Assembly (NCBI GenBank): GCA_017608025.1
Contig: JAFCGM010000005.1
Coordinates: 1 to 64,000 of the forward strand
DNA from: Candidatus Pacearchaeota archaeon
GTDB taxonomy: Archaea; Nanobdellota; Nanobdellia; UBA10117; JABICX01
Direction: 5' to 3'
DNA length: 64,000 bases
Shown: in pieces, positions 18,185 to 63,449 of the stretch
Layout: each line of letters starts with the position of its first letter
How positions within the stretch are numbered: position 1 is the stretch's first letter
Program-made: the position numbers and the translations under genes
Notes under the pieces: model-generated
What the model was told of the DNA's origin: nothing
Database searches by the model: none
The model's input: the letters and a program-made list of their open reading frames with translations, nothing else

Positions 18185-18330
18185 GCGTTCGTAGCTCAGT
18201 CTGGTAGAGCGATGGTCTTGTAATGAATTCCTTTCAAAAAGGTCTTCACCCTAAGTCTGGCGGAAAACCGATGATTCTGAAAGGAAAACTGGAAAACCAT
18301 AGGTCGAGGGTTCGATTCCCTCCGAGCGCT
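18185..18330 (+). tRNA. tRNA-Thr (TGT) with 72-nt intron
   Basis: Cloverleaf with acceptor GCGTTCG/CGAGCGC, D arm GCTC/GAGC, anticodon stem ATGGT/ACCAT, loop CTTGTAA with anticodon TGT, and T arm GAGGG/CCCTC. The anticodon loop is interrupted after position 37 by an intron at about 18223-18294. CCTTTC/GAAAGG inside the intron pairs to form the helix needed for the archaeal splicing endonuclease. The intron also contains a 30-base segment like one of the intergenic repeats downstream of tRNA-Lys. Confidence 0.92.
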
Positions 18331-18533
18331 GCCTTTTAGAAAAAGGCAAGTTGCCAAAAATTCTCGCTTCGCTCGAAAACGGTTTTGCAGAAGCTTTTTT
18401 TAAAAGCTTCAGTCGAGCGGATGATTCCCTCCGAGCGCTGCCTTTTAGAAAAACTAAAGTTCTTCTTTCATGAACATTTCTTTTTAAGAAAGGTTCTGCA
18501 AGTTGCCAAAAATTCTCACTTCGTTCGAAAATT
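18314..18533 (+). repeat. Duplicated tRNA-Thr 3' end with nested hairpin repeats
   Basis: The last 17 bases of the tRNA plus 14 bases of 3' flank (18314-18344, including the 5' arm of hairpin GCCTTTT/AAAAGGC) recur at 18423-18453. A second pair of related segments, starting GCAAGTTGCCAAAAATTCTC, follows each copy (18346-18381 and 18498-18533). In the downstream unit they are pushed apart by a 44-bp segment containing hairpin GAAC...TTTCTT/AAGAAA...GTTC. This reads as one duplication followed by a second, nested insertion. The remaining sequence to 18671 holds nothing I can assign except AT-rich promoter sequence. Confidence 0.8.
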
Positions 18534-21495: not shown

Positions 21496-21570
21496 GGGCC
21501 TGTGATCTAGTCCGGTTATGATGTCGCCCTTACAAGGCGAATGTCGGCGGTTCAAATCCGCCCAGGCCCA
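21496..21570 (+). tRNA. tRNA-Val (TAC)
   Basis: 75 bases. Acceptor GGGCCTG/CAGGCCC, anticodon stem TCGCC/GGCGA with loop CTTACAA and anticodon TAC, T arm GGCGG/CCGCC with loop TTCAAAT, discriminator A. CCA is not encoded. Its 3' end is duplicated 80 bp downstream. Confidence 0.95.
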
Positions 21571-21669
21571 TTGGTTCAAAAAATGCTCAGACGGAAACTA
21601 AATAGGTTTTCTTTTGGAAACTTACCTTTTCTTTTTTGAAAAGAAAAGGGAGATCCGCCCAGGCCCATT
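21556..21669 (+). repeat. Duplicated tRNA-Val 3' end
   Basis: Seventeen bases at the tRNA 3' end (21556-21572) recur exactly at 21653-21669. The 80-bp spacer ends with GGAAACTTACC and then the perfect inverted repeat CTTTTCTTTT/AAAAGAAAAG around TT, immediately before GGAG and the second copy. The promoter of the following J-domain-like gene begins inside the second copy. Confidence 0.85.
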
Positions 21670-25525: not shown

Positions 25526-25623
25526 GGGCGGGTAGCACAGTCTGGCAGTGCGTTTGCTTCGCAATAACTTTAACAGAAAAACGAAAAAGCAAAAGGTCCT
25601 GAGTTCAAATCTCAGCCCGTCCA
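25526..25623 (+). tRNA. tRNA-Ala (CGC) with 24-nt intron
   Basis: Acceptor GGGCGGG/CCCGTCC with the G3-U70 wobble pair that marks alanine tRNAs. The anticodon stem is TTTGC/GCAAA, loop TTCGCAA with anticodon CGC, interrupted after position 37 by an intron at about 25564-25587. T arm CTGAG/CTCAG, discriminator A. The 3' end is duplicated downstream. Confidence 0.92.
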
Positions 25624-25733
25624 CTTGAAGCTTTTCTTTAGAAAAGAAAATCTTCTGCAAAAGAAACCACTATTTGGGAATGCAAACACTTTTTTAAAGG
25701 GTTTGCCCTGGGTATCAAATCTCAGCCCGTCCA
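25605..25733 (+). repeat. Duplicated tRNA-Ala 3' end
   Basis: Nineteen bases at the tRNA end (25605-25623) recur exactly at 25715-25733. The spacer of 91 bp contains GCTTTTCTTTAGAAAAG, then GGGAATGCAAACACTTTT followed by TTAAAGGGTTTGCCC. The latter GCAAAC/GTTTGC inverted repeat is shared with the tRNA-Leu and rad50 duplications. Nothing codes in this gap or in the remaining 120 bp before tRNA-Ser. Confidence 0.85.
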
Positions 25734-26036: not shown

Positions 26037-26111
26037 GGGTCCGTAGCTCAGTCTGGCTAGAGCACTTGGCTCTTAACCAAGGGGTCGCGGGTTCAAATCC
26101 CGTCGGACTCG
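26037..26111 (+). tRNA. tRNA-Lys (CTT)
   Basis: 75 bases. Acceptor GGGTCCG/CGGACTC, anticodon stem CTTGG/CCAAG with loop CTCTTAA (anticodon CTT), T loop TTCAAAT, discriminator G. The 3' end is duplicated downstream. Confidence 0.95.
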
Positions 26112-26298
26112 CTTGAACCTTTCTCTTGTAAGAGAAATGTTCTCGAAAGAGAACGTATTATTTTTTCTTTGGGCAACTTACACTTTCTTTTTTCTAAAAA
26201 GAAAGGGCAGAATCCCGTCGGACTCGCTTGAATCCCTTTTCAAAAAAGTCTTCACTCCAAAACAATTTTTGGGAATGAAATCGCTTTTACAAAGAAAA
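26096..26298 (+). repeat. Duplicated tRNA-Lys 3' end and flanking hairpin repeats
   Basis: Twenty-two bases spanning the tRNA end (26096-26117) recur exactly at 26211-26232. The 93-bp spacer carries three hairpins (TTTCTCTTGTAAGAGAAA, GTTCTCGAAAGAGAAC, CTTTCTTTTTTCTAAAAAGAAAG), with GGGCAACTTAC just before the last. After the second copy a segment AAAAAAGTCTTCACTCC resembles part of the tRNA-Thr intron, then GGGAATGAAATCGCTTTT, a relative of the GCAAAC-type repeat. From about 26330 the gap holds the promoter of the next gene. Confidence 0.85.
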
Positions 26299-41533: not shown

Positions 41534-41644
41534 GCCTTATTATATTGTTCCCAGCAGAAATCCCTTTAAAAAGTGATTTCATTCCCAAAGAAAGCTTCAG
41601 AAAATCACTATTAAAAACTACAGCCTTATTATATTGTTCCCAGC
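41534..41644 (-). repeat. Duplicated rad50 3' end
   Basis: On the minus strand, 22 bases covering codons A-G-N-N-I-I-R and one more base (coding copy 41623-41644) recur exactly at 41534-41555, after the rad50 stop. The 67-bp spacer ends in GGGAATGAAATCACTTTTT and AAAGGGATTTC, a GAAATC inverted repeat like the unit behind tRNA-Ala and tRNA-Leu. The downstream copy reads on to its own stop one codon later. Confidence 0.85.
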
Positions 41645-43894
41645 TTCAGCTAGCCTTTCGTCATGAGTTACAACAAAAACCTGCTCAATTATGTCTGAAA
41701 GCCGCGTTTTTATTATTTCAACAAGAGTTTCAACAGCTTTGTCATCAAGATTGTGAGTTGGCTCGTCAAGAATAAGGAGCCCCAGATTTGGCGCCAAAAC
41801 TCTTGAAAAAGCAATTCTTACTGCAAGAGCTGCAAGCATTTTCTCTCCTCCAGATGCATAGCCAGAAACTTTTAGCCAGTCACCATCCAGATTTTTCATT
41901 TGCAGTATGTAGTCATTCTCGTCAACAAAAAGTCTTACACTCTGCCATTTTTCATAAGGATAAAGCTGACTCCATATTGAATCCATCATTTCATTTACAG
42001 TAAGAATAAGCTCATCTCTTAGTGACTTCTGAGTCTCGCTTAATGCCACCCTAAATTCTTCCAGAAACTTTGTTTGCCTTTCAAGAGCCTTTATTTCACC
42101 AAGATATTTTTCATTTTGCGAAAGCTCCCGTTCAAGGTTTGAAATTCTTTTTTCCTTTTCAGAAATAAGATTTTCAAAACCCTCAAGCCGCGTTTTTGCT
42201 TCCTGGATTTCATTTGCTGTTTTTTCTTTTTCCCGTTCAGCAGCAGCAAGGTTTGAGAGAATGTCGTTCTTTTCCCTTAAAATTTCCTCAAGCTCCTGAA
42301 GATTTTTATTTACTTCAATTTCCCGGTCTTTTAATTCAAAAAGCCGGATTTTTTCAATAAGGTATTCTCTTTTTCCATTAAGAGTCTCAATCTCCTGCTT
42401 CAAATCCTGTCTTTTTTTAGCAGTACTTTCAAATTCTGACTTTAAGGAGTTTTTCTTTGAAATTATTTCTTCTATTTTTAAGTGAATTTTCATTAATTCG
42501 TCTTTATAGAATTCTTCTTTTGAAATGTCTTCAAGTCCTTCGCGATTCTCTTTGAAGATTTTTTCAAGCATTTCCTCTCTTTTCTCAAGCTGTGAAAGTT
42601 CGTCTTTTATCTGCGATTGTTGCTGAAGATTTTCAGAAATTGCTCTTTTCTTCTCCGAAATCAGCTCGTTTTTTGTCATTTCTGAAAGCTCTCGACTGCA
42701 TGTAGGGCACAAGCTGTCTGCTTTTTCAAGCTCAACCAAATGGTTTTTTTCCTCAGAAATTTTGACTGAAAGAGAATTGAATTGCTTTTCAATTTCCTTT
42801 CTTCTTGCTTTTGTCTCCTCAAGCTCTGCATTCAAGTCTTTGATATTATATTCAAGAATTTTTTCTTTTAATTCTTTGATATTATCCATTTTTTCAGCGA
42901 GGTCTTTTTTCTTGCTTTCTAATTCAATCTGCTCCCGTTCAATTTCCAGAAGCTGTTGGTTTTTGGATTCTTTTTCAATTTCAAGACTTTCTATGAGTTT
43001 GTTTTTTTCAGGAATGCTTTCCTTGACTTTGTTTAGTTCTTTAAGAAATTCTTCTTTACTTTTGTCAAAAGAAGCTCCTGCAAGCTTTTCAGAAATTCTT
43101 CCAAGCTCCTCTTCCAAAAGTTCCTTTCTTTCAGATTTTTTCTGAACAAAATCTGCTTTTTCGCGAAGCCTTGAATGGCTTTTTAATATCATTTTTTCCC
43201 TTTCTTTTAGTTTTTCAAGGCCAGACTTCAAAGACACCTCTTGCGATTTTATTGCTTCTTTTTCTTTTATAAGTTCATCATGCTCTTTTTTTATTTCTTC
43301 AATATTTAGCTCAGAAACAATTTTCTCAAACTCTGCTTTTCTCTTCAAAAGCTGGTTTCTCAGCTTTATGCAGTTATTTCTAGCTTTGTCAAACTTGTCA
43401 AGCCCCATTAATTCATCTGTTTTTTCTTTTCTTTCTTTTGGCGAATATTTCACAATTGCGTCAATATTATTTTGAACGCAATAAGCTGTTCTAAAAAAAA
43501 TCTCGTCATTTGCTTTGAGAAAGTTCTCAACAAACAAATTCGCACTGGTTGGATTGGGTCCAGCTATAAGTTTGCCTTCACTGGTTCTTGCAACTGCTTC
43601 ATTTGTGCCTTTTTCATTTATCTTTCTTTGGATTATGTATTTTTCTTTTCCAGAGGAAATTTTAATTTTTGCTTCAGCAAAGCTCGCACCTGAATTTCGT
43701 GTTATGATTTCCTGTTGAGTTACATCTCTTTTTTTCAGCTCCATAAATGTTCCGAAAAGGGAAAAGCTGATTGCCTGAAGAATTGAGCTTTTTCCAGAGC
43801 CCATGTTTCCCACAAGGACATTGATTCCAGGCGAAAAAGTGAAATCCTTTTCACTATGAATTTTCCAGTTCTTCAGATAAAGAGAGTTAATCAT
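41618..43894 (-). CDS. rad50: Rad50 ATPase
   Basis: 758 residues. It has an N-terminal ABC half with G-N-M-G-S-G-K-S-S (about 30-38), long coiled coils, the zinc hook C-P-T-C at 396-399, the signature S-G-G-E-K and Walker B L-L-I-L-D-E-P-T-H. Two Rad50 molecules join through the hook and hold Mre11 at DNA ends. The coil is short, about as in other archaea. The start overlaps the mre11 stop by eight bases. The last codons are repeated downstream. Confidence 0.96.
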   Translation of the reverse strand: MINSLYLKNWKIHSEKDFTFSPGINVLVGNMGSGKSSILQAISFSLFGTFMELKKRDVTQQEIITRNSGASFAEAKIKISSGKEKYIIQRKINEKGTNEAVARTSEGKLIAGPNPTSANLFVENFLKANDEIFFRTAYCVQNNIDAIVKYSPKERKEKTDELMGLDKFDKARNNCIKLRNQLLKRKAEFEKIVSELNIEEIKKEHDELIKEKEAIKSQEVSLKSGLEKLKEREKMILKSHSRLREKADFVQKKSERKELLEEELGRISEKLAGASFDKSKEEFLKELNKVKESIPEKNKLIESLEIEKESKNQQLLEIEREQIELESKKKDLAEKMDNIKELKEKILEYNIKDLNAELEETKARRKEIEKQFNSLSVKISEEKNHLVELEKADSLCPTCSRELSEMTKNELISEKKRAISENLQQQSQIKDELSQLEKREEMLEKIFKENREGLEDISKEEFYKDELMKIHLKIEEIISKKNSLKSEFESTAKKRQDLKQEIETLNGKREYLIEKIRLFELKDREIEVNKNLQELEEILREKNDILSNLAAAEREKEKTANEIQEAKTRLEGFENLISEKEKRISNLERELSQNEKYLGEIKALERQTKFLEEFRVALSETQKSLRDELILTVNEMMDSIWSQLYPYEKWQSVRLFVDENDYILQMKNLDGDWLKVSGYASGGEKMLAALAVRIAFSRVLAPNLGLLILDEPTHNLDDKAVETLVEIIKTRLSDIIEQVFVVTHDERLAEAGNNIIRL

Positions 43895-45134
43895 TTAACA
43901 TCATCTCCTCTGCCTTCTCAAGATTTCCTTCTGAAAGGCTTAAAAACAGATTCTTTATTTTTTCAGATTTTTCCATTGAATCTGCCTTCAACTTGTTCAG
44001 AAGAATTTCTGTTCCAATTTCTTCAACAGAAACTTTTTTTGATTTAAGGTCAAGAATCATTTTTGTTTTTTCAGAAAGCTTTGAAGAGTAAATTCCTGAC
44101 TTGTCAAAATAGAGAATTGCTTTTCCAGAAAAGAGCTTGATTAGAGAGCTGAAGTCAAAGTCTGTTGGCAGAATTCCCTTTTCAACATCGCCCTTTAATT
44201 TTACTCTTATAAGAGGAGAGCTCTGCTTTGCAGTGGTTTTTATTATTTTAGTTATTTTTTCCTTAAGCTCTTCAGAAACAGCAGAAGGATCTTTTCCACT
44301 TACATCATTTTCAATAAGATGAAAGTCTCTTTCCTGCCGGATTTCCTTGAATTTTGCATTTATCTTTCCTTCTTTAATTTCAAGAATATAAATTCCCTTT
44401 TTCCTTTCAGCTTCGATTTTTCTCATTTGAGTTAGCATCGTGCTTCCTGGAATTATTATTGGGGCATTTGTCAAAGGATGCTTGTCTTCAATTCTCCAGT
44501 GAATGTGCCCGAGAAGATAAAGACTAAATCCTTTTGGCAGGTCAGACAAACTTGCAATTCGGGGATCTTTCATTGGCAGCAGCTCCTTAAAGCTTTGGTG
44601 CGCCATGAAAATGTTCACCATTCCGGGAAAAGGGGAAACATTCCATTTTTCCAAAATGTTTTTTACATATATGTCTGGAACTCCGCTTAACCCATGTAAG
44701 CCCACTTTTCCATTGTCAGATTCAACAATTAAGGAGTCTGTGTGAAGATGCATGAAAAGCCCGGCTTTTTCAAGAAGATGAATTGGATTTATATTTCCCT
44801 TGTTTCTTGTTTCATGCGTTCCGTAAATCCCCAAAATTGCAGGAACATTTTGGTTTAGGAACTCCTCTTTTTCCTTTAAATCTTTTTTCCGCACAATTTT
44901 AATGTTTCCAACTTTAAGAGCTACTTTTGAAAAAAGGTCAATTGCCTGAGCCATTATTTCTGGGCGAGGAACTTTGTCATGAAAAACATCTCCCAAAACC
45001 AGAACCAAGTCAGGATTTTCTGCAAGAGCAGAGTCAAAAGCAGATTCAGCATTAATAAACGAATCCCTCTCCCTTTTACCACCATAATCAAATCCAAGAT
45101 GAAAGTCAGTAACAACAGCAATTCTCATATTCAA
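43887..45134 (-). CDS. mre11: Mre11 nuclease
   Basis: 415 residues. A calcineurin-like metallophosphatase with V-T-D-F-H-L-G-F at the start (metal Asp and His), G-D-V-F-H-D-K near 48, Y-G-T-H-E-T near 105 and G-H-I-H-W near 207. It cuts DNA ends with Rad50. The final part is an acidic helical Rad50-binding region. The promoter (TATA-like CATTTAAAATC near 45155) lies in the 98-bp gap that it shares divergently with proS. Confidence 0.95.
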   Translation of the reverse strand: MNMRIAVVTDFHLGFDYGGKRERDSFINAESAFDSALAENPDLVLVLGDVFHDKVPRPEIMAQAIDLFSKVALKVGNIKIVRKKDLKEKEEFLNQNVPAILGIYGTHETRNKGNINPIHLLEKAGLFMHLHTDSLIVESDNGKVGLHGLSGVPDIYVKNILEKWNVSPFPGMVNIFMAHQSFKELLPMKDPRIASLSDLPKGFSLYLLGHIHWRIEDKHPLTNAPIIIPGSTMLTQMRKIEAERKKGIYILEIKEGKINAKFKEIRQERDFHLIENDVSGKDPSAVSEELKEKITKIIKTTAKQSSPLIRVKLKGDVEKGILPTDFDFSSLIKLFSGKAILYFDKSGIYSSKLSEKTKMILDLKSKKVSVEEIGTEILLNKLKADSMEKSEKIKNLFLSLSEGNLEKAEEMMLND

Positions 45135-55393: not shown

Positions 55394-56671
55394 ATGAAAA
55401 CAACCTTTATTCGAGACATTTTGAAAAAATCCAAGGCAGGGAAAACAGTTGAAGTCTGCGGATGGGTTTACAGAAAACGGGAAATGAAAGACAAGATATT
55501 TCTTGTAATTAGGGATTCAACAGATATTATGCAGGTAATTGTTACAGACAAGTCAGATGCATGGAAATCTGCACAGAAAGTTACAATAGAGTCTTCAGTA
55601 ATAATTTCTGGAACTTTGAAGCAAGACTTTAGAGCACCCACTGGCTATGAACTGAAAGCAGAAAAACTGGAAATAGTAGATCTTGCAGAAAGATTCCCAA
55701 TTTCAAAAGATCTTTCAACAGAATTTTTAATGGATGTCCGCCATCTTGCTTTAAGAGGAATTAAGCAGGCAGCAATTATCAAGCTTAGGTCCCAAATGTT
55801 TATGGCATTTCATGAGTATTTTCGAAAAAACAAGTTCATTGAAGCAGAAGCCCCTTCATTCATGTCTCAAGGTTCAGAAGGGGGCTCAGAAGTTTTTCAG
55901 GTAAAATATTTTGGAAAAAAAGCATTCCTAACTCAGTCATGGCAGTTTTATGCAGAGAACATGATTCATGCTTTTGAAAATGTTTATGCTCTTGCTCCTT
56001 CTTTTCGCGCAGAAAAATCCTCAACAAACCGCCACTTAACAGAATACTGGCACCTTGAAGTTGAGTCTGCCTGGGCAAACCTTAACGACATAATCAACCT
56101 TACAGAAGGATGCATATCTGCTGTGATTGACAAACTGCTAAGTGAAAATTCACGAGAGCTGGAGATTGTTGGAGTTGACAAAAAATGGCTTAATTCACTT
56201 AAGCCACCATACAAGAAAATAACATATTCAAAAGCAGTAAAAGAATTGCAGAAAAAAGGATTCAAAATCAAAGAAGGGCAAGATTTTGGAGCTCCGCATG
56301 AAAAGGAATTGGCAAAAAACGGCCCGATTTTTGTAACCCATTATCCAATGTCAATTCTGAAGTTTTACCATGGAGAAGACCCAAAAAATCCAGGCTATGG
56401 AACAAACTTTAATCTTCTTTTTCCTGAAGTCGGAGAAACAGTTGACGGCTCCCAAAGAGAGCCAGAACTGGAAAAAATAAAACAGCGCCTCAAAAAAGCG
56501 AAAATAAACCTTGGAAAATCTGACTGGTATCTGGATTCACGGAGATATGGTTCAGTGCCACATGCAGGCTTCGGCCTTGGAACAGAGCGCCTTTTGCAGG
56601 CTCTTTTGAAACTCGACCACATCCGAGACATTTTGCCATTCCCTAGGTTTATGAACCGAATAAGACCATAA
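55394..56671 (+). CDS. asnS: Asparaginyl-tRNA synthetase
   Basis: 425 residues, class IIb. An N-terminal OB fold binds the anticodon (about 15-100). Motif 2 is F-R-A-E-K-S-S-T-N-R-H-L-T-E, and motif 3 G-F-G-L-G-T-E-R. The catalytic S-E-G-G-S-E-V-F segment resembles AsnRS, and E-Y-W-H-L-E-V-E follows motif 2. The closest alternative is an AspRS-related enzyme. The last 24 bases and 44 bases of 3' flank are repeated exactly downstream. Confidence 0.9.
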   Translation: MKTTFIRDILKKSKAGKTVEVCGWVYRKREMKDKIFLVIRDSTDIMQVIVTDKSDAWKSAQKVTIESSVIISGTLKQDFRAPTGYELKAEKLEIVDLAERFPISKDLSTEFLMDVRHLALRGIKQAAIIKLRSQMFMAFHEYFRKNKFIEAEAPSFMSQGSEGGSEVFQVKYFGKKAFLTQSWQFYAENMIHAFENVYALAPSFRAEKSSTNRHLTEYWHLEVESAWANLNDIINLTEGCISAVIDKLLSENSRELEIVGVDKKWLNSLKPPYKKITYSKAVKELQKKGFKIKEGQDFGAPHEKELAKNGPIFVTHYPMSILKFYHGEDPKNPGYGTNFNLLFPEVGETVDGSQREPELEKIKQRLKKAKINLGKSDWYLDSRRYGSVPHAGFGLGTERLLQALLKLDHIRDILPFPRFMNRIRP

Positions 56672-56810
56672 AATATTGTTCTAATCTCTTTGAGATTGTT
56701 CTTTTGGCAACTTACCTTTTCTTTTGAAGAAAAGGCAGGGGTTTTATGAACCGAATAAGACCATAAAATATTGTTCTAATCTCTTTGAGATTGTTCTTTT
56801 GGCAACTTAC
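56648..56810 (+). repeat. Duplicated asnS 3' end with flank (68-bp direct repeats)
   Basis: Sixty-eight bases spanning the asnS 3' end and its downstream flank (56648-56715) recur exactly at 56743-56810. Both copies end in GGCAACTTAC. The first is followed by hairpin CTTTTCTTTTGAAGAAAAG and the second by a different hairpin, AAACTTTTTAGAAAAAAGTTT. The spacer is only 27 bp, so the period is 95 bp. This shows GGCAACTTAC as a fixed junction followed by interchangeable hairpins. Confidence 0.9.
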
Positions 56811-58122: not shown

Positions 58123-58728
58123 ATGGCTAAAATAAAATTAATCATCTTTGACATTTGGAATACGCTTATGTACACACATGAAAATAAATTAGATGTTATG
58201 CTTGAGCTTTTAGGTATTGATGAAGCAACATTCAGAGATGGAATAAAGCGAATGTGTCTTTCTAAAATGTCTATTGAAGATCTTTTCTCAGAATTTACAA
58301 CAGATAAAAAGAAACTTAAAACTGCTGTTGATTTATGGATGAATGATAAAGTTACTATTTACAAGGATGTTATTCCTACGCTGAATGTATTATATGGGAA
58401 AATTAAGATGGCAATTCTTTCTAACTCTTCAACATACATAAGAGAATTTTTGAAGGAAAAAAGGATTTCTGCGTATTTTGATAAGATTTATTTGTCTGCA
58501 GAATACGGACTTCTTAAGCCAGATCCAAGGCTTTTTAATATAATTCTTAAAGATTTTAATTTAAAACCAGAAGAAGTAGCAATGGTCGGCGACAAGGAAA
58601 GCAAAGACATCGCCCCAGCCAAGCAAAAGGGAATTCTCGGAATTTTGATTGACAGAAAAAACTCAAAAGAGAAAATCCTTGCTGACTACAAAATTCAGAA
58701 TTTGAGAGAAATAGAAAAGATAATTTAG
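58123..58728 (+). CDS. HAD-superfamily hydrolase
   Basis: 201 residues. HAD core: F-D-I-W-N-T with the nucleophile Asp10, the S-N-S-S motif, a Lys in L-K-P-D-P, and V-G-D-K-E-S-K-D-I at the metal site. The usual second Asp of motif I is Trp12, which is rare and may reduce the acid-base function. The substrate is unknown. It starts 12 bp after tRNA-Glu and is probably read through from it. The last 48 bases plus 8 of flank are repeated exactly downstream. Confidence 0.87.
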   Translation: MAKIKLIIFDIWNTLMYTHENKLDVMLELLGIDEATFRDGIKRMCLSKMSIEDLFSEFTTDKKKLKTAVDLWMNDKVTIYKDVIPTLNVLYGKIKMAILSNSSTYIREFLKEKRISAYFDKIYLSAEYGLLKPDPRLFNIILKDFNLKPEEVAMVGDKESKDIAPAKQKGILGILIDRKNSKEKILADYKIQNLREIEKII

Positions 58729-58829
58729 TTTTCTTTTGGCAACTTGGGTTTTCTTTTTCTAAAAGAAAAGCCAGCTGACTACAAAATTCAGAATTTGAGA
58801 GAAATAGAAAAGATAATTTAGTTTTCTTT
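58681..58829 (+). repeat. Duplicated HAD-gene 3' end (56-bp direct repeats)
   Basis: The last 48 bases of the HAD gene and 8 bases of flank (58681-58736) recur exactly at 58774-58829. The 37-bp spacer has GGCAACTTGGG and the inverted repeat CTTTTTCTAAAAGAAAAG. After the second copy comes GGGTTACCTTACC, a relative of the GGCAACTTACC block. No coding frame is seen in the rest of this gap. Confidence 0.9.
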
Positions 58830-62972: not shown

Positions 62973-63056
62973 GCTAGGGTACCCAAGCGGTCAAAGGGGC
63001 AGGACTTAAGATCCTGTGGCTTAGTGCCTTCCGGGGTTCGAATCCTCGCCCTAGCA
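62973..63056 (+). tRNA. tRNA-Leu (TAA)
   Basis: 84 bases, class II with long variable arm. Acceptor GCTAGGG/CCCTAGC, anticodon stem AGGAC/ATCCT with loop TTAAG (anticodon TAA), T loop TTCGAAT, discriminator A. Its 3' end recurs twice downstream. Confidence 0.93.
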
Positions 63057-63449
63057 CTGCCCTTTCTTTCCCAAAGAAAGTGCAAGTTGCCCAAAGAAAA
63101 ACAACAATAGTTCTTTGCAAACACCAAAGAAAATGCTTCGGTCATAATAACCTATTTATTCGAAAGAAAAACAACAATAGTTCTTTGCAAACTTATTATT
63201 TTTGATGAAACTTTTTCTAAAAGTTTCTTTTTGATGAAACTTTTTCTAAAAGTTTCTGGGGGATGCAAACACTTTTCTAAAGGGTTTGCAGGGGTTAAGA
63301 ATCCTCGCCCTAGCACTTTCTCTTTTAGAAAAAGAGAACCTGCACTAAGAGAAAACTAATCTTTAAAAAAAGATGCATCAAAAATGTTTCGCTGCCGCTT
63401 AACATACTTTTCTTTTTTGAAAAGAAAATATCATCGCCCTAGCACTGCC
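63041..63449 (+). repeat. Triplicated tRNA-Leu 3' end in a repeat array
   Basis: Eighteen bases at the tRNA end (63041-63058) recur exactly at 63300-63317, and 16 bases of it recur at 63434-63449. The first spacer has hairpin CTTTCTTTCCCAAAGAAAG, two 30-bp repeats (63093-63122 and 63163-63192), a 26-bp tandem pair with GATGAAACTTTTTCTAAAAG, and GATGCAAACACTTTTCTAAA just before the second copy. CTTTTCTTTTTTGAAAAGAAAA precedes the third copy. Nothing codes here. Confidence 0.85.

Follow-up and report, generated by a model that had tools for sequence, protein, structure and literature searches.

A repeated rad50 gene end beside a dispersed hairpin repeat in a Pacearchaeota genome: a possible footprint of very small mobile DNA

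Why do the closing codons of rad50 recur, without a single change, behind the stop codon of the gene? This question is raised by a 64,000-nucleotide stretch of DNA, hereafter the window, from a Candidatus Pacearchaeota archaeon that is tiny and probably parasitic. The repeat is an exact 22-bp direct repeat, GCCTTATTATATTGTTCCCAGC on the plus strand and GCTGGGAACAATATAATAAGGC on the minus strand, with a start-to-start distance of 89 bp (Table 1). Since the rad50 ORF (Pfam domains SMC_N / AAA_23 / SbcC_Walker_B) runs on the minus strand from 43894 to 41618, the copy at 41623-41644 provides its last codons, AGNNIIR, within the gene end ...GCT GGG AAC AAT ATA ATA AGG CTG TAG, and the other copy, followed by CATAA, lies past the stop. 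In the reading direction of the gene, the gene copy is followed by a 67-bp insert, whose far portion TTTGGGAATGAAATCACTTTTTAAAGGGATTTC contains the hairpin GAAATCaCTTTttaAAAGgGATTTC. This hairpin has one internal mismatch and ends 1 base short of the second copy, and thus precedes it. An earlier note had reported both the recurrence of 22 identical bases past the stop and the preceding GAAATC...GATTTC inverted repeat with its AAAGGG core, and both observations hold. The repeat far exceeds chance, as runs of at least 22 identical bases at 35-260 bp spacing are expected about 5e-6 times per window from base composition, and 88 identical runs of at least 16 bases are found in three contigs of the genome versus 0 in third-order Markov shuffles.

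Table 1. Features of the rad50 locus and of other duplicated gene ends in the window.
Feature	Position	Strand
tRNA-Ser(tga); hairpin, then second copy of T-loop to 3' end, 109 bp downstream	18314..18453	+
tRNA-Val(tac); 3'-end duplication, family A hairpin	21556..21669	+
tRNA-Ala(cgc); 3'-end duplication, family C hairpin	25605..25733	+
tRNA-Lys(ctt); 3'-end duplication, family A hairpin	26096..26232	+
Distal 22-bp copy, then CATAA (in frame CCA TAA) versus CTG TAG	41534..41555	-
67-bp insert separating the copies; opening bases supply final codon CTG and stop TAG	41556..41622	-
Family C element TTTGGGAATGAAATCACTTTTTAAAGGGATTTC; hairpin 41557-41580, 1 base off distal copy	41557..41589	-
rad50 (SbcC/RAD50-like ATPase, 758 aa); stop TAG 41618-41620	41618..43894	-
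Proximal 22-bp copy; rad50 final codons (AGNNIIR and first base of L)	41623..41644	-
mre11-like gene, immediately upstream of rad50	43887-45134	
Class II aminoacyl-tRNA synthetase gene (55394-56671); 3'-end 68-bp repeat	56648..56810	+
ORF 58123-58728; 3'-end 56-bp repeat, family A hairpin	58681..58829	+
tRNA-Leu(taa); 3'-end duplication, several hairpins, family C adjoining distal copy	63040..63317	+

Beyond the identical block the two rad50 ends differ in their stop codons (TAG in the gene, TAA in the distal copy) and in the preceding codon, which is CTG (Leu) in the gene and CCA (Pro) in the distal copy. This last change is non-synonymous, and rad50 therefore matches the pattern of recoded gene ends described below only in part. 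Most relatives in the order have Leu or Ile at this position, which suggests that the functional end is the proximal one and that the distal one may have drifted. The comparison with the rad50 3' flanks of relatives, proposed in the earlier note, showed that the insertion is absent from them, although their proteins are only about 35-41% identical and, thus, too distant to provide an exact empty site. An alternative rad50 allele or empty site was not found on any second contig, including the small contigs of the assembly; several of the small contigs C7, C9, C11-C20, and C22 (L090, L091, L093-L103) are runs of N (masked).

The proposed element at rad50 comprises about 33 conserved bp within the 67-bp insert and belongs to a hairpin family, here called C, with 13 copies within two mismatches in the 0.7-Mb genome. 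Family C is a dispersed repeat with a conserved, covarying stem: among nine aligned copies, three of the ten base pairs are altered on both sides, and 98.9% of the cells still pair. It is absent from two genomes of the same family, Candidatus Woesearchaeota SI048_bin60 (G002) and Candidatus Pacearchaeota Meg19_1012_Bin_180 (G001), and has one weak match elsewhere in the order; kinship with these two genomes is the basis used here for the taxonomy of the window genome. Families A, B, D, E, F, and G share a similar design, a T-rich lead followed by a mismatched hairpin, in most cases built around CTTT...AAAG. Profile searches of the genome recovered at least 95 non-redundant loci of such related repeats, 78 of which lie between ORFs or at their edges, whereas intergenic DNA makes up 18% of the sequence. 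The duplicated gene ends form direct repeats of 15-66 bp (median 25). Direct repeats flank 44 of the 95 elements, compared to a mean of 4.2 and a maximum of 11 under random intergenic placement, and it is the hairpin end that adjoins a repeat copy (median distance 5 bp, versus 31.5 for the other end). The inserts, under about 250 bp, are much too small for coding. Some gene ends carry serial insertions, with at least three successive copies and different elements (C28:106850, C26:113540, C28:130780, and C8:53080). The arrangement is real, but to call it a duplicated rad50 end is not the whole description: what is new at the locus is a hairpin repeat of dispersed type, flanked by the duplicated end of the gene.

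Other hairpin repeats of this genome occur in different settings. A 37-bp unit, GCTTTTTCTAAAAGGGGCTTTTTTCTTTTCCGCAGCC, is arranged head to tail at the contig end formed by positions 1-111 of the window, at C28:80809, and at C8:1-110, and contigs seem to break at this repeat. Family D elements (GTGGGTCCCTT..AAGGAC) are located within ORFs at C8:23177, C8:26291, and C8:98330, where the repeat unit is divisible by three and the reading frame is thus kept, an arrangement reminiscent of Rickettsia palindromic elements. A search for a known RNA family yielded only tRNAs in Rfam, together with one chance sub-threshold match at the rad50 locus.

Duplicated gene ends are found on both strands, as the earlier note had stated, and extend well beyond rad50. 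Of the 36 tRNA genes that ARAGORN annotates in the genome, 14 are followed by a second copy of their 3' end. The first identical base falls in or at the T-loop (tRNA positions 53-59) for 12 of these 14 genes, and for eight the identity stops no more than 1 base from the 3' end as annotated by ARAGORN. A T-stem-like 5' strand is preserved in several distal copies, which carry small changes precisely in the T-loop. Many tRNA genes of the window (e.g., 18331, 63058, and 26113) also have a hairpin within a few bases on their 3' side in an intron-like orientation, even where the 3' end is not duplicated.

Similar 3'-end duplications affect about 25 protein genes. The homology stops between -5 and +4 of the stop codon in 14 of 25 genes, as defined by longest-ORF heuristics, and extends up to 44 bases further in the others, a spike at stop codons that is partly favoured by short intergenic distances. 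Of the 23 codons that lie past the identical block but before the stop, 15 specify the same amino acid, 11 of them through another codon (p about 1e-13, against a control identity of 0.058). Moreover, six of nine recognisable stop codons are swapped: where the distal copy has TAA, the copy in use has TAG or TGA. The idea that stop codons are recoded everywhere had to be softened, because the TAG at C28:106916 results from an element that begins with G after TA. Repeats were detected at a threshold of at least 15-17 identical bases, which biases the sequence outside the block, and the contrast between left and right mismatches (18/93 versus 30/89) is modest. Hairpin loops were rejected as a general cut site, since the left edges in protein genes are no more loop-like than nearby positions. 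Protein genes are thus affected, as the earlier note had claimed, but so are tRNA genes, and the mixed set, which includes an aminoacyl-tRNA synthetase, reveals no special link with DNA repair; a reading specific to rad50 or to DNA repair is too narrow.

The explanation that we favour, at about even confidence, is that the rad50 duplication was left behind by a mobile hairpin element of very small size, which integrated at the 3' end of the gene through an att-like or homologous crossover. The element molecule would carry its own version of the gene end, and a single crossover between this molecule and the chromosome within a short identical block, comparable to attL/attR integrases or to Campbell-type homologous integration, would produce the order attL-element-attR. 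The near copy would then restore the gene, and the far copy, at rad50 the one at 41534-41555, would be the displaced original end. As for the acquisition of gene ends, the simplest guess is that a neighbouring end might be captured when the element leaves a donor chromosome. When a repeat extends from the T-loop as far as the tRNA end, and the near copy restores the gene while the far copy persists as a fragment, this is the classic outcome of integration through a crossover within a short identical core. Most of the 14 duplicated tRNA genes have such repeats, and proximal copies complete the gene ends. A crossover core in the T-loop has been documented for the mycobacteriophage Ms6 (PMC1762012), archaeal integrases prefer tRNA 3' ends (PMC8371274), and a T-loop crossover that restores the gene end is a known behaviour of tRNA-targeting integrases (PMC1762012, PMC8371274). 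These repeats, together with the synonymous replacement of final codons expected of an element that carries a gene end, favour an att-like or homologous single crossover. Several points count against this explanation: the inserts are too small for coding, only two tyrosine recombinase genes were found, dozens of unrelated targets are more than one integrase should be able to use, neither an element molecule with a gene end nor an empty site in a close relative was seen, and the differing codon at rad50 is non-synonymous.

The same repeats could also reflect transposition of a MITE-like hairpin through a staggered cut, in which case the repeats, 15-66 bp long, would be target-site duplications that vary in length, and insertions would have persisted only where the gene end was preserved. 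Such a mechanism, which we regard as unlikely, fits a dispersed hairpin family with flanking direct repeats, whose variable length recalls the 3-26 bp described for Yersinia YPAL/RU-2 (PMC2229807), and the few repeats located at 5' ends or in intergenic DNA. However, it predicts neither edges at the T-loop, tRNA 3' ends, and stop codons nor synonymous recoding past the identical block. The repeats are not of the constant short length typical of target-site duplications, and most inserts consist of one hairpin at one end rather than terminal inverted repeats tied to a transposase, for which rve, Y1, Cas1, and TnpB were searched. The integrase domain rve (PF00665) was not found in the three family genomes (that of the window, G000, together with G001 and G002), Y1 (HUH) transposase (PF01797), as in REP or IS200-IS605, and Cas1 (PF01867), as in casposons or other Cas1-driven insertion, had no match in the same genomes with positive controls, and TnpB-type PF07282 had no match over the cut-off. 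A quite doubtful proposal is that reverse transcription of the gene RNA stopped or jumped at modified bases and switched to a small RNA ending in the hairpin, the resulting cDNA being recombined at the locus. Positions 53-59 are modified in archaeal tRNAs, and it is here that the tRNA left edges lie and that several distal copies are lesioned; right edges fall frequently at tRNA 3' ends, and the hairpin end is the fixed end, as in target-primed retroelements. Nevertheless, copying the same gene would not yield synonymous recoding of its final codons, and no reverse transcriptase (PF00078, RVT_1), as expected for group II introns, retrons, or non-LTR elements, was matched in the three family genomes with positive controls. 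The assembly of this genome, a fragmented draft of 34 contigs, is 91.5% complete and partly masked, with 641,485 readable bases, and hence the absence of an enzyme gene from it is not proof.

It is improbable that the direct repeats are attL/attR relics of a larger virus or plasmid that lost its interior and kept only a hairpin, since about 40 independent integrations would all have to shrink to short inserts ending in the same few hairpin families, which is unparsimonious. Attachment at the T-loop or gene ends is typical of archaeal integrases (PMC8371274), and the assembly includes two tyrosine recombinase genes, one XerA-sized (C8:80683-81489) and one on contig C24, both outside the inserts, none of which contains an integrase. 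Contig C24 (L105, 7182 bp) is plasmid- or virus-like and encodes membrane proteins and a P-loop ATPase-like ORF in addition to the tyrosine recombinase (234 aa). However, it carries no hairpin element or shared gene end, and three element patterns searched in viral contigs found no match, so that a viral or plasmid source was rejected. Finally, tandem duplication by slippage or an artefact of assembly would agree with the fragmented draft and with the few loci that are true tandem repeats, and yet either is very improbable: the copies have diverged under codon-level constraint, local-repeat clusters reach 11.1 per 100 kb here versus 0-4.4 in stretches of five relatives, and the insert is missing after the distal copy, which is not what a tandem duplication leaves.

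Further observations on the history of these hairpins come from tRNA introns. Copies of family B constitute introns of tRNA-Arg, -Thr, -Met, and -Ser in G002 and G001, in the opposite orientation, and the same applies to the tRNA intron at C8:7276 in the window genome. No burst of direct repeats was found in the stretches read of G001 and G002, and, therefore, the element family is probably older than the burst and may be able to lodge harmlessly as an intron. In addition, a family C copy lies inside an intron-containing tRNA-Tyr gene (C25:72104-72302), in the orientation opposite to that of the gene-end copies.

Taken as a whole, the hairpin insertions at dozens of gene ends and tRNA genes point to very small mobile DNAs that form a little-known class. 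More specifically, and with less than even confidence, we propose that a Woesearchaeota/Pacearchaeota-like lineage harbours a new class of mobile hairpin elements, 30-100 bp in size, which would insert at T-loops and protein gene ends, bring replacement and often recoded ends, be moved by a recombination system of the host or a symbiont, and be able to live as tRNA introns. If so, tiny hairpin DNAs would be able to colonise the gene ends of a minimal genome harmlessly, since the target gene is restored at every insertion, an unusual gene-safe strategy of mobility. A link would also exist between mobile hairpins and the way in which archaeal tRNA introns arose, and one source of tRNA fragments and altered C-termini in DPANN archaea would be explained. 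The literature searched, which covered few subscription papers and no preprints, contained no description of this arrangement.

Several known systems share part of it. The attL/attR sites of tRNA-targeting elements (Ms6 and archaeal SSV-type or pT26-2-type elements) likewise show a repeat from the T-loop to the 3' end, with a proximal copy that restores the gene and a distal fragment, whereas the inserts described here are under about 250 bp, have no integrase or cargo, and occupy dozens of unrelated targets, many of them protein genes. Rickettsia palindromic elements, REP, and other small palindromic repeats are also dispersed hairpins, some of them located in ORFs with a frame-keeping length. 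REP requires a Y1 transposase, which was not found here, and, to our knowledge, none of these repeats has been described with gene ends duplicated as long direct repeats. Archaeal bulge-helix-bulge tRNA introns resemble the present elements in that family B forms the body of several introns in G001 and G002 and of that at C8:7276, although in introns the hairpin orientation is reversed and no exon end is duplicated; the rad50 copy is located in the 3' flank of the gene, and only other copies (of family B and others) are tRNA introns according to ARAGORN. The YPAL/RU-2 elements of Yersinia measure 168 bp, with insertion-site repeats of 3-26 bp (De Gregorio et al. 2006, reviewed in PMC2229807). 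These are likewise small, palindromic, non-coding mobile repeats in intergenic DNA, with insertion repeats of variable length, no known transposase, and co-transcription with upstream genes. In contrast, the archaeal hairpin is only 30-45 bp long with longer repeats (15-66 bp), and it is distinguished by repeat edges that fall at T-loops and stop codons, by the recoding of gene ends, and by its sharing with tRNA introns.
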